A stretch of 31,670 nucleotides of DNA from an uncultured Candidatus Saccharibacteria bacterium. GTDB lineage: Bacteria; Patescibacteria; Saccharimonadia; Saccharimonadales; CAMLKC01. The notes below the pieces were generated by a model. It had not been told where the DNA came from. It saw only the letters and a list, made by a program, of their open reading frames with translations, and searched no databases. Where the stretch lies: positions 1-31,670 of the forward strand of contig CAMLDM010000009.1 in assembly GCA_946479025.1 (NCBI GenBank), in the 5' to 3' direction. Every line of letters starts with the position of its first letter. Within the stretch, counting starts at the first letter, position 1. A program made the translations under genes and the position numbers. Below are positions 9,646 to 15,670 of this stretch, one piece after another.

Positions 9646-10053
9646 TTACGGATGCAGAAACCAGCGAGACGGATCTGCGAGAGAGCGGCTCGGGCGCGTC
9701 AGTTTGCCGAGTATCGTGTCGTACTCGCCAAATTCGAAGAGCCTGGACAGGATCTTCGCCGCCGTGTAAGCTCCGCTTCCCGCGAAACCGGCGCTGACGC
9801 CGCCTCTGATAAGGACGACCACCACTTGGCCGGCCTTATGTCCCTCAATCTCCAGCATGCTGGATTTGGCATCCGTCACGCTGGCGCTGGTCCAGACGGT
9901 GCCAGCGATGAGCTCGTCGTCGGTGATTTTTCTGGCTCCTTCGACGGCCTTTTCGGAGGAGGCCGCCGTGACGGTGACTTCCAGGATGTTGCCGGGCCGG
10001 CCGAGAAGGACCTTCAGCCCATCAGACGACAAAATTTCCACCTGGTCTGTCAT
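9646..10053 (-). CDS. 135-aa protein, unknown function
   Basis: The start is taken as ATG 10053 because GAGGTG lies 9 nt upstream; a GTG at 10065 in the same frame is possible and adds four residues. The product is soluble, beta-rich at the start (EILSSDGLKVLLGRPG, LEVTVTAASSEKAVEGARK), has a GQVVVVLIRGGVSAGF core and a glycine-rich SGAYTAAKILSRLFEF helix. No signal peptide or membrane helix. Codons are strongly C-ended. It stands alone with a consensus promoter and an intrinsic terminator. No family recognised. Confidence 0.72.
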   Translation of the reverse strand: MTDQVEILSSDGLKVLLGRPGNILEVTVTAASSEKAVEGARKITDDELIAGTVWTSASVTDAKSSMLEIEGHKAGQVVVVLIRGGVSAGFAGSGAYTAAKILSRLFEFGEYDTILGKLTRPSRSLADPSRWFLHP

Positions 10054-10159: not shown

Positions 10160-10462
10160 ATGAAAGCAACCTGGAAAAATACAACAATCGCAGAGGCACC
10201 TGAGGAAGACTTGATTCGGATCGAAGGGAACTGGTATTTTCCGCCGAGCAGCCTGCGGCGCGAGTACTTCAAAGAGAGCGATCACCGGACGTTTTGCCCA
10301 TGGAAAGGCGAGGCGCATTATTACGACGTGGTCGTGGGCGGTGAAACCAATGAATTTGGCGCGTGGTATTACCCGCAGCCAAAAGACGGCTCAATCGAGC
10401 GCGTGAAGAAAGATTTTACCGGCTACGTTGCGTTTTGGAACGGTATTGAAGTAGAGGAGTAG
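10160..10462 (+). CDS. DUF427 domain protein
   Basis: A 100-aa protein that matches the DUF427 pattern: an N-terminal NWYFPPSSLRREYF strand-turn, the signature TFCPWKGEAHYYDVVVGG, AWYYPQP, and a terminal GYVAFWNGIEVEE. The family is a small beta-fold of unknown biochemical role. The upstream in-frame ATG at 10139 precedes the -10 box, so ATG 10160 is chosen. The stop codon abuts the antisense hammerhead ribozyme at 10463. Confidence 0.85.
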   Translation: MKATWKNTTIAEAPEEDLIRIEGNWYFPPSSLRREYFKESDHRTFCPWKGEAHYYDVVVGGETNEFGAWYYPQPKDGSIERVKKDFTGYVAFWNGIEVEE

Positions 10463-10512
10463 CGCTTTTCGTCCTTTTGGACTCGTCAGCATAACTTACA
10501 GTTATGGAAGCG
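10463..10512 (-). ncRNA. Type III hammerhead ribozyme
   Basis: Read on the minus strand 5' to 3': stem III strand CGCUU (10512-10508), cleavage base C17 (10507), stem I CAUAACU-GUA-AGUUAUG (10506-10490, seven perfect pairs), core CUGACGA (10489-10483), stem II GUCC-AAAA-GGAC (10482-10471), core GAA (10470-10468), stem III strand AAGCG (10467-10463). All invariant hammerhead positions are met: CUGANGA, GAA, A15.1-U16.1, C17, and the G10.1-C11.1 and C1.1-G2.1 closing pairs. Stem III is open, which makes it type III. Cleavage is predicted between 10507 and 10506. Stem I lacks a bulge, so loop-loop contacts that speed natural ribozymes are not obvious. It lies 30 nt after the stop of the 200-aa gene. 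Confidence 0.88.
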
Positions 10513-10530
10513 GTTCAACAAGCGAACCGC
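10510..10530 (-). other. Hairpin that competes with ribozyme stem III
   Basis: On the minus strand GCGGTTC (10530-10524) pairs perfectly with GAACCGC (10516-10510) around a 7-nt loop. The last three bases (10512-10510) are also part of the hammerhead stem III strand, so only one of the two structures can form fully. No U-tract follows, so it is not a normal intrinsic terminator. Confidence 0.65.
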
Positions 10531-10541
10531 CGAAACACGCA

Positions 10542-11144
10542 TCAGTTGGCACTCTGGTCGTTGTAGCCGTCGACGGCGGGAGGGAACTGCTGGTGAAGCG
10601 GAACGGATATGTCCGGCTCTTCGCCATCGTCCGAATCTTCGGCCAACACTGTCGCAGGCGCTTCTTCGTCTTCTCCCATCTCGGCCATGCTGTAGGCCGC
10701 CTCGGCTCTTTCGTAGGCCAGCTGGAAGCCTACCGGGTCGAGGGTGCTCCACTGGCTGCCGCTGAGGTCCTCCAGGACATTTTCGGCGAGGAGAAAGATG
10801 GGCTCGATCGGGACGTTGAGCCGCGGAATCAGAACCGTGATCTCGGCCTTCACGAAGGAAGAGGAGATCATGATCTTTTTATCCGTTGCATATCGCGTAC
10901 AGCTGTTAATATCCGGTGAAACGCCGTCGCGCATCATGGTCATCTCGATCTCGTCGTTGAGTCGATCGAGCATGGAATAGGCTGAGCCCGCCGCGATACC
11001 GATCAGGTGAAGAACGATGTCGCGGTTCACCTCCCAATTCTGGACGATATTGCCCGAGTCGTAGTCGATGCGGATTGCGATCGACCCTTCGCAGGCGAGG
11101 GGGATCAGAACGGTCGCGAACGCAGGAAAGCTTTTGGGGGTCAT
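10542..11144 (-). CDS. 200-aa protein, unknown function, with ribozyme in its 3' region
   Basis: ATG 11144 to TGA at 10542. The product has a beta-rich first part (FATVLIPLACEGSIAIRIDYD), helical middle segments (AAGSAYSMLDRLNDEIEMTMM), a strand-rich FVKAEITVLIPRLNVPIEPIF stretch and a very acidic disordered tail (MGEDEEAPATVLAEDSDDGEE). No signal peptide or convincing membrane helix. ATC, CTC, GAC and GCC dominate the codons. It has a consensus promoter about 160 nt upstream and a structured leader; the Shine-Dalgarno is weak (AGAAG). No family recognised. Confidence 0.72.
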   Translation of the reverse strand: MTPKSFPAFATVLIPLACEGSIAIRIDYDSGNIVQNWEVNRDIVLHLIGIAAGSAYSMLDRLNDEIEMTMMRDGVSPDINSCTRYATDKKIMISSSFVKAEITVLIPRLNVPIEPIFLLAENVLEDLSGSQWSTLDPVGFQLAYERAEAAYSMAEMGEDEEAPATVLAEDSDDGEEPDISVPLHQQFPPAVDGYNDQSAN

Positions 11145-11301
11145 AACGATCCGTTCTTCTCACGGCGTCAAGTTGCCACTGTGCGTCTTGTTTCGCACAA
11201 GATGAGAGATGCGGCCACGTGTGGGATGTGACGATATCTCTCACCTTGTAAGGTTCGCTTGTTATGAGGTGCGTACTCGATCCCTGAGGGGAGAGTAATT
11301 A
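11145..11301 (-). other. Structured 157-nt 5' leader of the 200-aa gene
   Basis: The predicted transcript leader holds three nested or tandem helices on the minus strand: CACCT/AGGTG, GAGAGAT/ATCTCTC enclosing about 25 nt, and CTTGT-GCGAA-ACAAG. No known riboswitch consensus is recognised. It contains no convincing gene. A 34-codon open stretch from a GTG at 11244 runs on into another frame of the CDS and is thought to be a shadow. Confidence 0.45.
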
Positions 11302-11307
11302 CTCCGA

Positions 11308-11336
11308 ATTATAAAATATTTCTTTATATTAATCAA
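11308..11336 (-). promoter_or_regulatory. Consensus promoter of the 200-aa gene
   Basis: On the minus strand TTGATT (11336-11331), 17 bp, then TATAAT (11313-11308) in AT-rich DNA. Confidence 0.7.
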
Positions 11337-13204: not shown

Positions 13205-14179
13205 ATGTCTGTTAAGCCGAATTACCGAACCGCCGAGAGCGTGTCGCCGAAACATCCGGATAAACTTTGTGATCAGATTTCAGATGCAATACTAGACGCG
13301 CACCTCGAGGAGGATTCAAATGCGCGAGTGGCGATCGATGTTGCTGGTGGCCACGGCCATGTATTTGTGACCGGCGAGGTGACGAGCGGTGCAAAAAGTG
13401 TCGATGTTACGGAGATTGTCCGCAGGATCGCCGGCAGCGACATGAACGTGTACGCGCACATCGTGGCGCAAAGCCCGGAGATCGCGCAGGGTGTCGATAC
13501 GGGCGGAGCGGGCGACCAAGGGATTATGATAGGGTACGCAACGAGCGAGACGCCGGAATATTTGCCGCTCGAGGTGATTTTGTCGCGCAGGCTAAACGAG
13601 ACACTGTACAAAATATGGCCATTTGACGGCAAGACGCAGGTAACGCTCGAAGACGATGTTGTTGCTTCGGTCGTGGCGAGCTTTCAGCATGCACCACAGG
13701 CGGAGCTGCGCGCAGCGGTTGAGAATTGGCTGCAAGATTATAACACGCGAGATGACGTGGAGCTGCATATCAACCCGAGCGGCGACTGGAACCAGGGCGG
13801 CTTTGACGCGGATGCCGGGCTTACCGGGCGCAAACTGATCGTTGATAATTATGGTCCGCGCATCTCCATTGGCGGCGGTGCGTTCAGCGGCAAAGACGCC
13901 AGCAAGGTTGATCGCAGCGCGGCTTACATGGCAAGGAAAATCGCAGTGGATTATCTGAAAAAACGCGGCGCGCAAGAGGTATTTGTGCGCCTGGCGTACG
14001 CGATCGGCGTGGCCGAACCATTGGAAGCAAGCGTGATCATCGATGGAAAGCACGAAGTGGTGCAGGGCTATGATCTGACGCCGCGGGGTATCATCAAGGC
14101 GCTCGATCTGCGCCGCCCGCAATTTGAAAAAACGGCGCGTTACGGCCATTTTGGGCATAACTTTACCTGGGAGAAATGA
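13205..14179 (+). CDS. metK: S-adenosylmethionine synthetase
   Basis: A 324-aa MetK, about 60 residues shorter than the E. coli enzyme. ATP/Met-binding HPDKLCDQISDAILDAH, the GAGDQGIMIGYAT loop, LTGRKLIVDNYG, the P-loop-like GGGAFSGKDASKVDRSAAY and AYAIGVAEP are all present; the shortening lies in surface loops and the C-terminus (ends GHFGHNFTWEK). It makes SAM from methionine and ATP, the ligand of its own riboswitch and substrate of the methyltransferases in this window. Confidence 0.96.
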   Translation: MSVKPNYRTAESVSPKHPDKLCDQISDAILDAHLEEDSNARVAIDVAGGHGHVFVTGEVTSGAKSVDVTEIVRRIAGSDMNVYAHIVAQSPEIAQGVDTGGAGDQGIMIGYATSETPEYLPLEVILSRRLNETLYKIWPFDGKTQVTLEDDVVASVVASFQHAPQAELRAAVENWLQDYNTRDDVELHINPSGDWNQGGFDADAGLTGRKLIVDNYGPRISIGGGAFSGKDASKVDRSAAYMARKIAVDYLKKRGAQEVFVRLAYAIGVAEPLEASVIIDGKHEVVQGYDLTPRGIIKALDLRRPQFEKTARYGHFGHNFTWEK

Positions 14180-14689: not shown

Positions 14690-15670
14690 ATGGAAACCGA
14701 AACACCGGAAACGACTGATATTTTTTTATGGGCAAATAATACCGATGGGATCAAGAAAGAACTCGACGTCGAATTCTTTTTGTTCAACAAAAACTACACG
14801 CCGTACAGCACTCATTTTTCGAGCGATTTGAACGCGCAGATCAAGCCGCTGTTTCTATACGATCTCATAAATTTCGTAAATATGGGCGCGGGCACCGGCC
14901 TTTCCGTTCGTGACTTTGAGCTTTCTGACGGCGAGGAAAACACGCTGCTTCGCACCGATCTCGTTAAAGTCGGCCGTGCTGAGACGCTCATTCATTTGAT
15001 TGAAAAAGAACGGCATGACATCGTGGAATTTTCTCAGGAAGAGCACGAGTTCAAGCGCATCAAAGGAATCGTGGCGCGCTTTACTCGCAAGGAAGATCCG
15101 AAAAAAGCATTCTACGTGATAAAAGCTATCTCGCAGGGCAACGTGCTCAGCGGCGCGACCAGCTGGGAATTCCGCGACGGCAAATTCGGCGCGTTCCAAG
15201 CGGACGTCGGCCTTAAAATGCCGGACGACAACCAGGTGCTGATCATTGATAAAGACATTTTCGTTTTCAACCAGAACAAGTTCGAAAAGTTGTTCAACTA
15301 TGACTACAAAAAACAAGCACTGGCCGATGTGAAAGTCGCGGAGATTGAAAAACAGTTTAAATTGAGCTTCCCGGACGGCCTGGACTTGCAGACTTTGGTG
15401 CGCGAGCGCAAGAAAATCGTGAATAAGCTGCAAAAGATGGAAATCGGCGCGGTGACGCAGGAGCAGGCGATCGAATATGCCGACGAAATGCAGCTCGAGC
15501 TGATGACCGATGACGCCGGCGCGATCATCATTATGGACGGAAACGATCTGGATACGTTCGTGAATCTTATCAACGAAGATTACATTGTGAGCGAAATTAC
15601 TGGCAAACGCTACGAGATCAAGAGTAAGAAACTGCTCGATGACCCGGAGGGTGAACCGCCGCGCGGCTAG
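14690..15670 (+). CDS. KwaB-like (DUF4868) protein
   Basis: A 326-aa soluble protein. Its C-terminal two thirds follow the DUF4868 pattern of KwaB from the Kiwa anti-phage system: the strand pair QVLIIDKDIFVFNQNKFEKL, a helical middle, and the closing NLINEDYIVSEITGKRYEIKS. KwaB acts with the membrane protein KwaA in known Kiwa loci; no KwaA-like four-helix protein lies beside this gene, and DUF4868 members also occur outside Kiwa. A defence role is therefore only an inference. It converges on pheA with overlapping stop codons (CTAG, 15667-15670). Confidence 0.65.
   Translation: METETPETTDIFLWANNTDGIKKELDVEFFLFNKNYTPYSTHFSSDLNAQIKPLFLYDLINFVNMGAGTGLSVRDFELSDGEENTLLRTDLVKVGRAETLIHLIEKERHDIVEFSQEEHEFKRIKGIVARFTRKEDPKKAFYVIKAISQGNVLSGATSWEFRDGKFGAFQADVGLKMPDDNQVLIIDKDIFVFNQNKFEKLFNYDYKKQALADVKVAEIEKQFKLSFPDGLDLQTLVRERKKIVNKLQKMEIGAVTQEQAIEYADEMQLELMTDDAGAIIIMDGNDLDTFVNLINEDYIVSEITGKRYEIKSKKLLDDPEGEPPRG

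Follow-up and report, generated by a model that had tools for sequence, protein, structure and literature searches.

What does a hammerhead ribozyme do behind a gene in the chromosome of a Saccharibacterium? A 2017 review (PMC6155905) calls the role of prokaryotic hammerheads an open question. A stretch of 31,670 nt from an uncultured Candidatus Saccharibacteria bacterium, hereafter the window, puts the question in concrete form: on its minus strand, a hammerhead motif follows a gene for a 200-aa protein and abuts the end of a convergent DUF427 gene. A sequence-only reading had described the motif as a complete type III hammerhead antisense to the end of DUF427, and had proposed that self-cleavage may form the mRNA 3' end of the 200-aa gene or separate it from RNA antisense to DUF427.

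The hammerhead and its setting in the window

The unit spans 11336-10461 on the minus strand, with promoter, leader, 200-aa ORF, stem-loop and hammerhead in that order. Its parts, including two complementary segments that we call anchors, are as follows, together with the neighbouring gene:

11331..11336, minus: -35-like box TTGATT, read from the sequence, at 17-nt spacing to TATAAT
11308..11313, minus: -10 box TATAAT, read from the sequence, with a putative transcription start at about 11301-11305
11252..11264, minus: 5' anchor TAACAAGCGAACC, a segment of the 5' leader with complementarity to the 3' anchor
11197..11249, minus: leader stem-loop (ACAAGGTGAGAG ... CTCTCATCTTGT), positioned as in the leaders of relatives
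10542..11144, minus: 200-aa ORFan gene, without Pfam or PHROG match
10510..10531, minus: 3' stem-loop GCGGTTC-GAACCGC, sharing bases with the 3' anchor and with stem III (5' strand)
10516..10528, minus: 3' anchor GGTTCGCTTGTTG, ending 9 nt before the predicted cleavage site
10461..10514, minus: type III hammerhead ribozyme, by Rfam match, reading of the core and covariance model R1 (built with this sequence included)
10160..10462, plus: DUF427 gene (PF04248), convergent, a neighbour only

The motif is present as claimed: at 10463-10512, stems I, II and III comprise 7, 4 and 5 bp, and the core is complete, with CUGANGA, GAA, U16.1-A15.1 and H17 all in place. The scissile C would be 10507, which places the predicted cut between 10507 and 10506 and agrees with the downstream-product 5' end that had been expected at 10506. 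The Rfam check suggested earlier (221 nt against all 4227 families) returned a full-length match to Hammerhead_3 (RF00008; 10514-10461, 34.0 bits, E 5.8e-6), but one under the gathering score of 48.5, so that a default Rfam scan of the window misses it. The motif shares with RF00008 type III hammerheads the core, the three helices and the open end at stem III; it differs in that lower score and in a short stem II with an AAAA loop, and its family sits at chromosomal genes of Patescibacteria. A single instance of the core pattern is found in the window and not one in 100 shuffles, and R1, described below, reports no second hammerhead there. At the level of sequence, the hammerhead at 10514-10461 is confirmed as real, and its relatives are the strongest evidence for this.

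The 200-aa gene has the highest GC3 (0.751) of the 33 predicted genes in the window, and codon-permuted versions of its coding region fold just as well (z -0.11). No homologue other than itself was found in one word-based protein search (222 candidates, limited sensitivity), nor any in viral contigs by pattern search. A second minus-strand gene without Pfam match, at 9646-10053, also has an unusually high GC3 (0.735).

Other genes of the window include glyS, mraY and two whose assignments, metK-like and murG-like, score below NCBIfam cut-offs; a SAM riboswitch precedes the metK-like one. The riboswitch (RF00162, 13040-13145, plus strand, 77.5 bits, over the cut-off) lies 5' of the methionine adenosyltransferase-like gene at 13205-14179, and an ORF at 14690-15670 on the plus strand is weakly similar to anti-phage KwaB (E 1.3e-11; its 44 bits fall short of the cut-off, 200). 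We rejected a phage remnant on the presence of glyS, mraY and the metK- and murG-like genes, together with the finding that each PHROG family matches at most 3 of 78 proteins encoded upstream of family hammerheads; one virion structural match and one portal match occur among those 78.

The link to DUF427 fared less well. The hammerhead lies on the opposite strand, as had been stated, but it adjoins the gene and is not inside it, the overlap being confined to the stop codon (10460-10462). Among the best 120 of 4073 DUF427 homologues, the organism is of the Saccharibacteria wherever it is given; among loci in named genomes, Saccharibacteria are mostly topmost, with other Patescibacteria, Curtobacterium and others lower. 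The top-ranked locus, L001 (80% DUF427 identity; 83% in L002), shares the window's gene order: a glyS-like gene, then DUF427, then relatives of the three genes that come next in the window. There, DUF427 is followed by the next gene after about 145 nt and the hammerhead unit is absent, and the stretch between the ends of the flanking alignments measures about 90 nt, compared with about 910 nt in the window. The unit was either gained in the window's lineage or lost in that of L001. Moreover, of at least 559 DUF427 loci found, 80 were kept, and a strict scanner saw a hammerhead in none of these; the single match of a relaxed scan (L013) is probably due to chance. DUF427-specific regulation is unsupported, and by these comparisons the DUF427 link is incidental.

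A hammerhead family behind genes of Patescibacteria

An initial look with RF00008 at the loose threshold of E <= 1 gave matches in three of four related genomes and also in 3 of 14 controls. At E <= 0.01, matches appeared in 57 of 294 genomes of the same order and in none of the 14 controls; three of the 294 exceed the Rfam cut-off. Our own scanner, run over the loci collected, yielded 69 sites, including the likely chance match in L013. Of the remaining 68, 67 were aligned, L109:2617 being left out for its long loop. Within this alignment, 93.4% of cells of the 18-pair hammerhead structure are paired and 349 are changed on both sides, compared with a shuffle mean of 97; these counts lean towards the structure, since the scanner demanded minimal stems, though not the outer pairs of stem III. 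The covariation score is 0.748, compared with 0.217 for shuffled alignments and 0.08-0.12 when the structure is slid. Three helices, an open stem III and covariation are therefore all found in these 67 sequences, chosen partly by minimal stems, and the covariation in relatives that the sequence-only reading had made a test of the motif is present.

The covariance model R1, built from the 67 aligned hammerheads, found relatives in 49 of the 379 genomes sampled from the phylum (E <= 1e-3) and in 97 of the 392 sampled from the class (E <= 1e-8); the order, phylum and class counts use different thresholds, and the samples overlap each other and the genomes behind R1. A single genome may hold up to 14 hammerheads of the family, and none of the R1 type was found in the five actinobacterial genomes searched. 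Three loci (L341, 52-1990, minus; L145, 2110-5342, plus; L121, 901-2443, minus) show rows of three to five same-strand hammerheads spaced at about 0.6-1 kb, which would suit one short gene ending at each. In L122, hammerheads on opposite strands (1742-1796, plus; 1826-1882, minus) lie tail to tail, each behind its own convergent predicted gene. Among the PMC papers searched, a collection poor in subscription articles and bioRxiv preprints, none mentions the hammerhead ribozyme together with either Saccharibacteria or Patescibacteria, and none that has 'self-cleaving ribozyme' also has 'candidate phyla radiation'.

The family recurs in one architecture. At 110 distinct sites, the nearest upstream predicted gene lies on the same strand in 86, on the opposite strand in 22 and is missing in 2, as called by a home-made gene finder that misses some small genes; several of the 22 opposite-strand sites still have an anchor at the right distance. 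Four sites overlap a predicted gene, and the hammerhead mostly stands about 90-100 nt after the stop codon, behind a stem-loop. Folding is strong in the 110 nt that precede the ribozyme (median z -3.43, n=110) compared with the sequence downstream (-0.77) and after 218 other stop codons (-0.73). Sites fetched later repeat the pattern, with the upstream gene on the same strand in 42 of 45 and a median upstream z of -3.28 (n=45; downstream -0.78, n=44). That self-cleavage may form an mRNA 3' end is favoured by this comparison, whereas the DUF427 link in the same proposal is not, so the earlier interpretation is partly supported; it had missed the stem-loop, the 5'-3' complementarity and the family membership.

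The upstream genes are distinctive in composition rather than in kinship. GC content climbs over about 600 nt up to the ribozyme and falls beyond it, and GC3 averages 0.717 in 78 upstream genes compared with 0.52 in 221 other genes, being higher in 48 of 52 loci; the later sites give 0.713 (39 genes) and 0.535 (71 genes). GC1 and GC2 are nearly alike in the two groups. Furthermore, coding regions of the units as a group show more folding than their codon-permuted counterparts (median z -1.94, n=71), compared with -0.41 for sampled other genes (n=80). The predicted proteins (80 genes within 300 nt) are diverse and range from 39 to 511 aa, with a median of 156. One gene family as carrier was rejected, as only 9 similar pairs occur among the 80 proteins and no Pfam family matches more than 2 of 78 among the matches listed. 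An attC-like integron cassette was also considered; by eye, L085 looked so and L084 did not, and the idea was dropped.

Complementary ends

In part of the units, the stretch that directly adjoins stem III is complementary to a stretch of the unit's own 5' leader, as with UAACAAGCGAACC/GGUUCGCUUGUUG in the window. The anchor sequences differ from unit to unit, for example UGACAAGCAAGGAUAG/CUAUCCUUGCUUGUCA in L095, AUAGUGUGUGAUGU/ACAUCACACACUAU in L152 and GCACCAACACAUCC/GGAUGUGUUGGUGC in L142. Own anchor pairs score at least 26 in 25 of 80 units (20 in register), compared with 4.5 expected from swapped partners, a conservative test since the swapped pairs share consensus sequence; reversed segments reach this score in 2 of 80. 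The register is specific: with a 16-nt 3' window ending 8 nt before the cut, 20 of 79 units score at least 26, compared with 12 and 6 units at the partly overlapping offsets of 4 and 12 nt, and 0-2 at offsets of 0 and 16-96 nt (34-79 units each).

When the search was extended to 3 kb, anchors were found upstream at 45 of 110 sites and downstream at 10 of 92, both searches catching some neighbouring units. A few of the 45 upstream matches pair with a neighbouring unit in place of their own leader (L121 twice, L118:4717 and L117:4004). In the later-fetched sites, anchors occur upstream at 14 of 45 and downstream at 0 of 39, with 1-4 of 45 at other registers; 46 such sites were found, one was dropped for too short an upstream stretch, and only identical ribozyme sequences were removed, kinship otherwise being kept. 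Since most units (65 of 110 in the first set, 31 of 45 in the later one) have no anchor above threshold, end pairing may hold only for part of the family.

Predicted folds agree with the pairing in the window. In a free fold of its 795-nt transcript, the anchors close the transcript with 11 pairs at probability 0.95-1.0, and the pairing is retained in 12 of 12 folds with a codon-permuted coding region. Across 35 strongly anchored units (anchor score >=28, at most 1.3 kb from anchor to cut), unconstrained whole-transcript folds pair the ends in 28, and a local 3' stem-loop wins in 7. This competition is built into the window, where the 3' stem-loop overlaps both the 3' anchor and a strand of stem III and so competes with both. 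A free fold of the 91-nt 3' end lacks stem III, so cleavage could be slow or conditional, and pairing with the leader could free the ribozyme.

The leaders have features of their own. Those of L091, L093, L095, L106, L109, L115, L118, L121, L125, L130 and L131 are alike, with GUUGAG..CUC followed by a UUUGACAAGC-like element, and these GUUGAG..CUC mRNA starts lie directly 3' of the promoter. The leader of L135 includes a strand, CCUCAUCUUGUG, that could pair upstream or with the ribosome-binding region.

Are anchors a general trait of hammerheads? In at least 120 viral contig stretches from IMG/VR that carry the core pattern, our scanner counted 132 type I and 51 type III sites. Segments scoring at least 26 show no upstream excess in these stretches (13 of 168 upstream, 18 of 169 downstream), whereas the same measure gives 42 of 108 upstream and 8 of 109 downstream in Patescibacteria, and the idea of a general trait was rejected. 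Fifty viral type III sites from these stretches nevertheless follow directly on a folded segment (median z -1.99, compared with 0.11 downstream), so that the stem-loop with hammerhead looks wider in distribution than the anchors. Viral type III hammerheads (L165-L284) often have a palindromic stem-loop before them, many of these GTGTCTTCAAAGACAC-like. Anchors were seen only in Patescibacteria, the sole cellular group examined for them. The parts consulted of two accounts of bacterial and phage hammerheads (Perreault et al. 2011, PMC3088659; the review PMC6155905) describe no paired 5'-3' anchors, unlike the units reported here. The register-specific 5'-3' complementarity in part of the units is, as a sequence feature, new here.

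What the ribozyme may do

We consider it probable, though well short of certain, that the hammerhead makes the 3' end of an mRNA and that this end locks onto the leader, the unit being one transcript; the argument draws on sequence comparison and predicted folds. The 200-aa gene and the hammerhead would form one transcription unit from about 11301 to 10461 on the minus strand. From the intact core, we infer that the nascent RNA cuts itself after C10507. Hammerhead cleavage leaves a 2',3'-cyclic phosphate, and the cut would give the mRNA a defined 3' end of this kind a few nucleotides behind the stem-loop, while severing any read-through RNA that is antisense to DUF427. The final segment ahead of the cut site (10528-10516) is complementary to the leader at 11264-11252 and is predicted to pair with it, so that the mature mRNA would be closed end to end. 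In the cell, closed ends and GC3-rich, folded coding regions would most likely shield the message from RNases that attack ends, and in units whose 5' anchor covers the ribosome-binding site, translation could also be held back. Hammerheads of the family would in this way stand at the end of many accessory genes, unrelated to each other, in Saccharibacteria as well as other Patescibacteria, with anchors detectable in part of them.

Control of translation could instead be the main effect. A fold-back translation switch like those of type I toxins, in which the 3' end produced by the ribozyme masks the ribosome-binding site for as long as that end is present, is a possibility that we hold only tentatively. 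Sections of PMC6733600 describe hok and aapA3 mRNAs as controlled by long 5'-3' interactions. The units resemble hok/aapA mRNAs, so far as the same sections go, in that the mRNA 3' end would pair with the 5' leader and, in some units, with the ribosome-binding site. Complementarity and predicted folds agree with a pairing of 3' segment and 5' leader. In L102, L117 and L133 the 5' anchor has an AGGAG or GGGAG and is no more than about 25 nt away from the predicted start; the anchors of L316 contain AGGAG as well. In the window and many other units, however, the anchor stands about 105-160 nt before the start codon. The units further differ from hok/aapA in their predicted ribozyme-made 3' end and in longer, more diverse proteins: at 200 aa in the window and a median of 156 aa across the 80 upstream genes, most exceed type I toxins in length.

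The absence of the unit between the same neighbours in L001 could also point to a mobile element, whose anchors would be the terminal inverted repeats of a DNA cassette with the hammerhead as a passenger. Mostly unrelated genes within units, some units in tandem, and a GC-rich island that stops at the ribozyme would all suit such a cassette. Yet anchors differ between units, including pairs of units from the same genome (in L125, L095 and L116), each remaining complementary to its own partner, and they lie inside the transcript, 3' of the promoter and 5' of the ribozyme; we regard this explanation as unlikely.

Still less probable is that the ribozyme merely controls read-through, cutting antisense RNA that enters a convergent neighbour, with the anchors as by-products of stem-loops. 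A convergent gene does lie downstream at 43 of 110 sites, 18 of them within 18 nt, as in the window, but the other 67 face a same-strand gene, and the register-specific complementarity to the leader would be left unexplained.

In engineered ribozyme-flanked RNA circles, the ends are brought together for ligation. An excised circular or viroid-like RNA with its ends so joined, as in those circles or in Obelisk-like replicons, would fit the complementary ends, the type III hammerhead and the highly folded transcripts, but it is very improbable given an ordinary promoter, a chromosomal location, no recognised 5' ribozyme in a low-threshold Rfam scan of five loci with leaders, and no RtcB in 12 related genomes (the window's own not among them) compared with 9 of 14 controls, on which RtcB circularisation was rejected. 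Obelisks, in the partial accounts consulted, are folded RNAs of about 1 kb with an ORF and self-cleaving ribozymes; the window unit differs in being encoded in chromosomal DNA behind a promoter. One of the five loci searched, L135, has a weak match to RAGATH-10 (RF03147) in its hammerhead-unit leader (1182-1264, plus; 28.8 bits, E 8e-4, 201 nt), below the cut-off of 41.2.

For the reading that we prefer, a ribozyme-made 3' end locked onto the leader, the significance lies in its recurrence. The hammerheads are present in roughly one in four of the genomes sampled from one class, mostly in one repeated place, after a stop codon and a stem-loop and in part beside a segment complementary to the leader. 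This repeated arrangement after unrelated genes gives bacterial hammerheads a testable job. Patescibacteria, which are small epibionts, might conceivably maintain a separate class of accessory messages, a suggestion we offer with considerable reserve: nuclease-resistant, end-locked RNAs composed of a 5' anchor, a structured GC3-rich ORF, a 3' anchor and a 3' terminus made by a ribozyme in place of a terminator end. Such messages may serve as long-lived mRNA stores, and perhaps act outside the cell. If the preferred reading is true, mRNA 3' ends would routinely be made by a ribozyme in a bacterial lineage, part of whose messages would be closed end to end.
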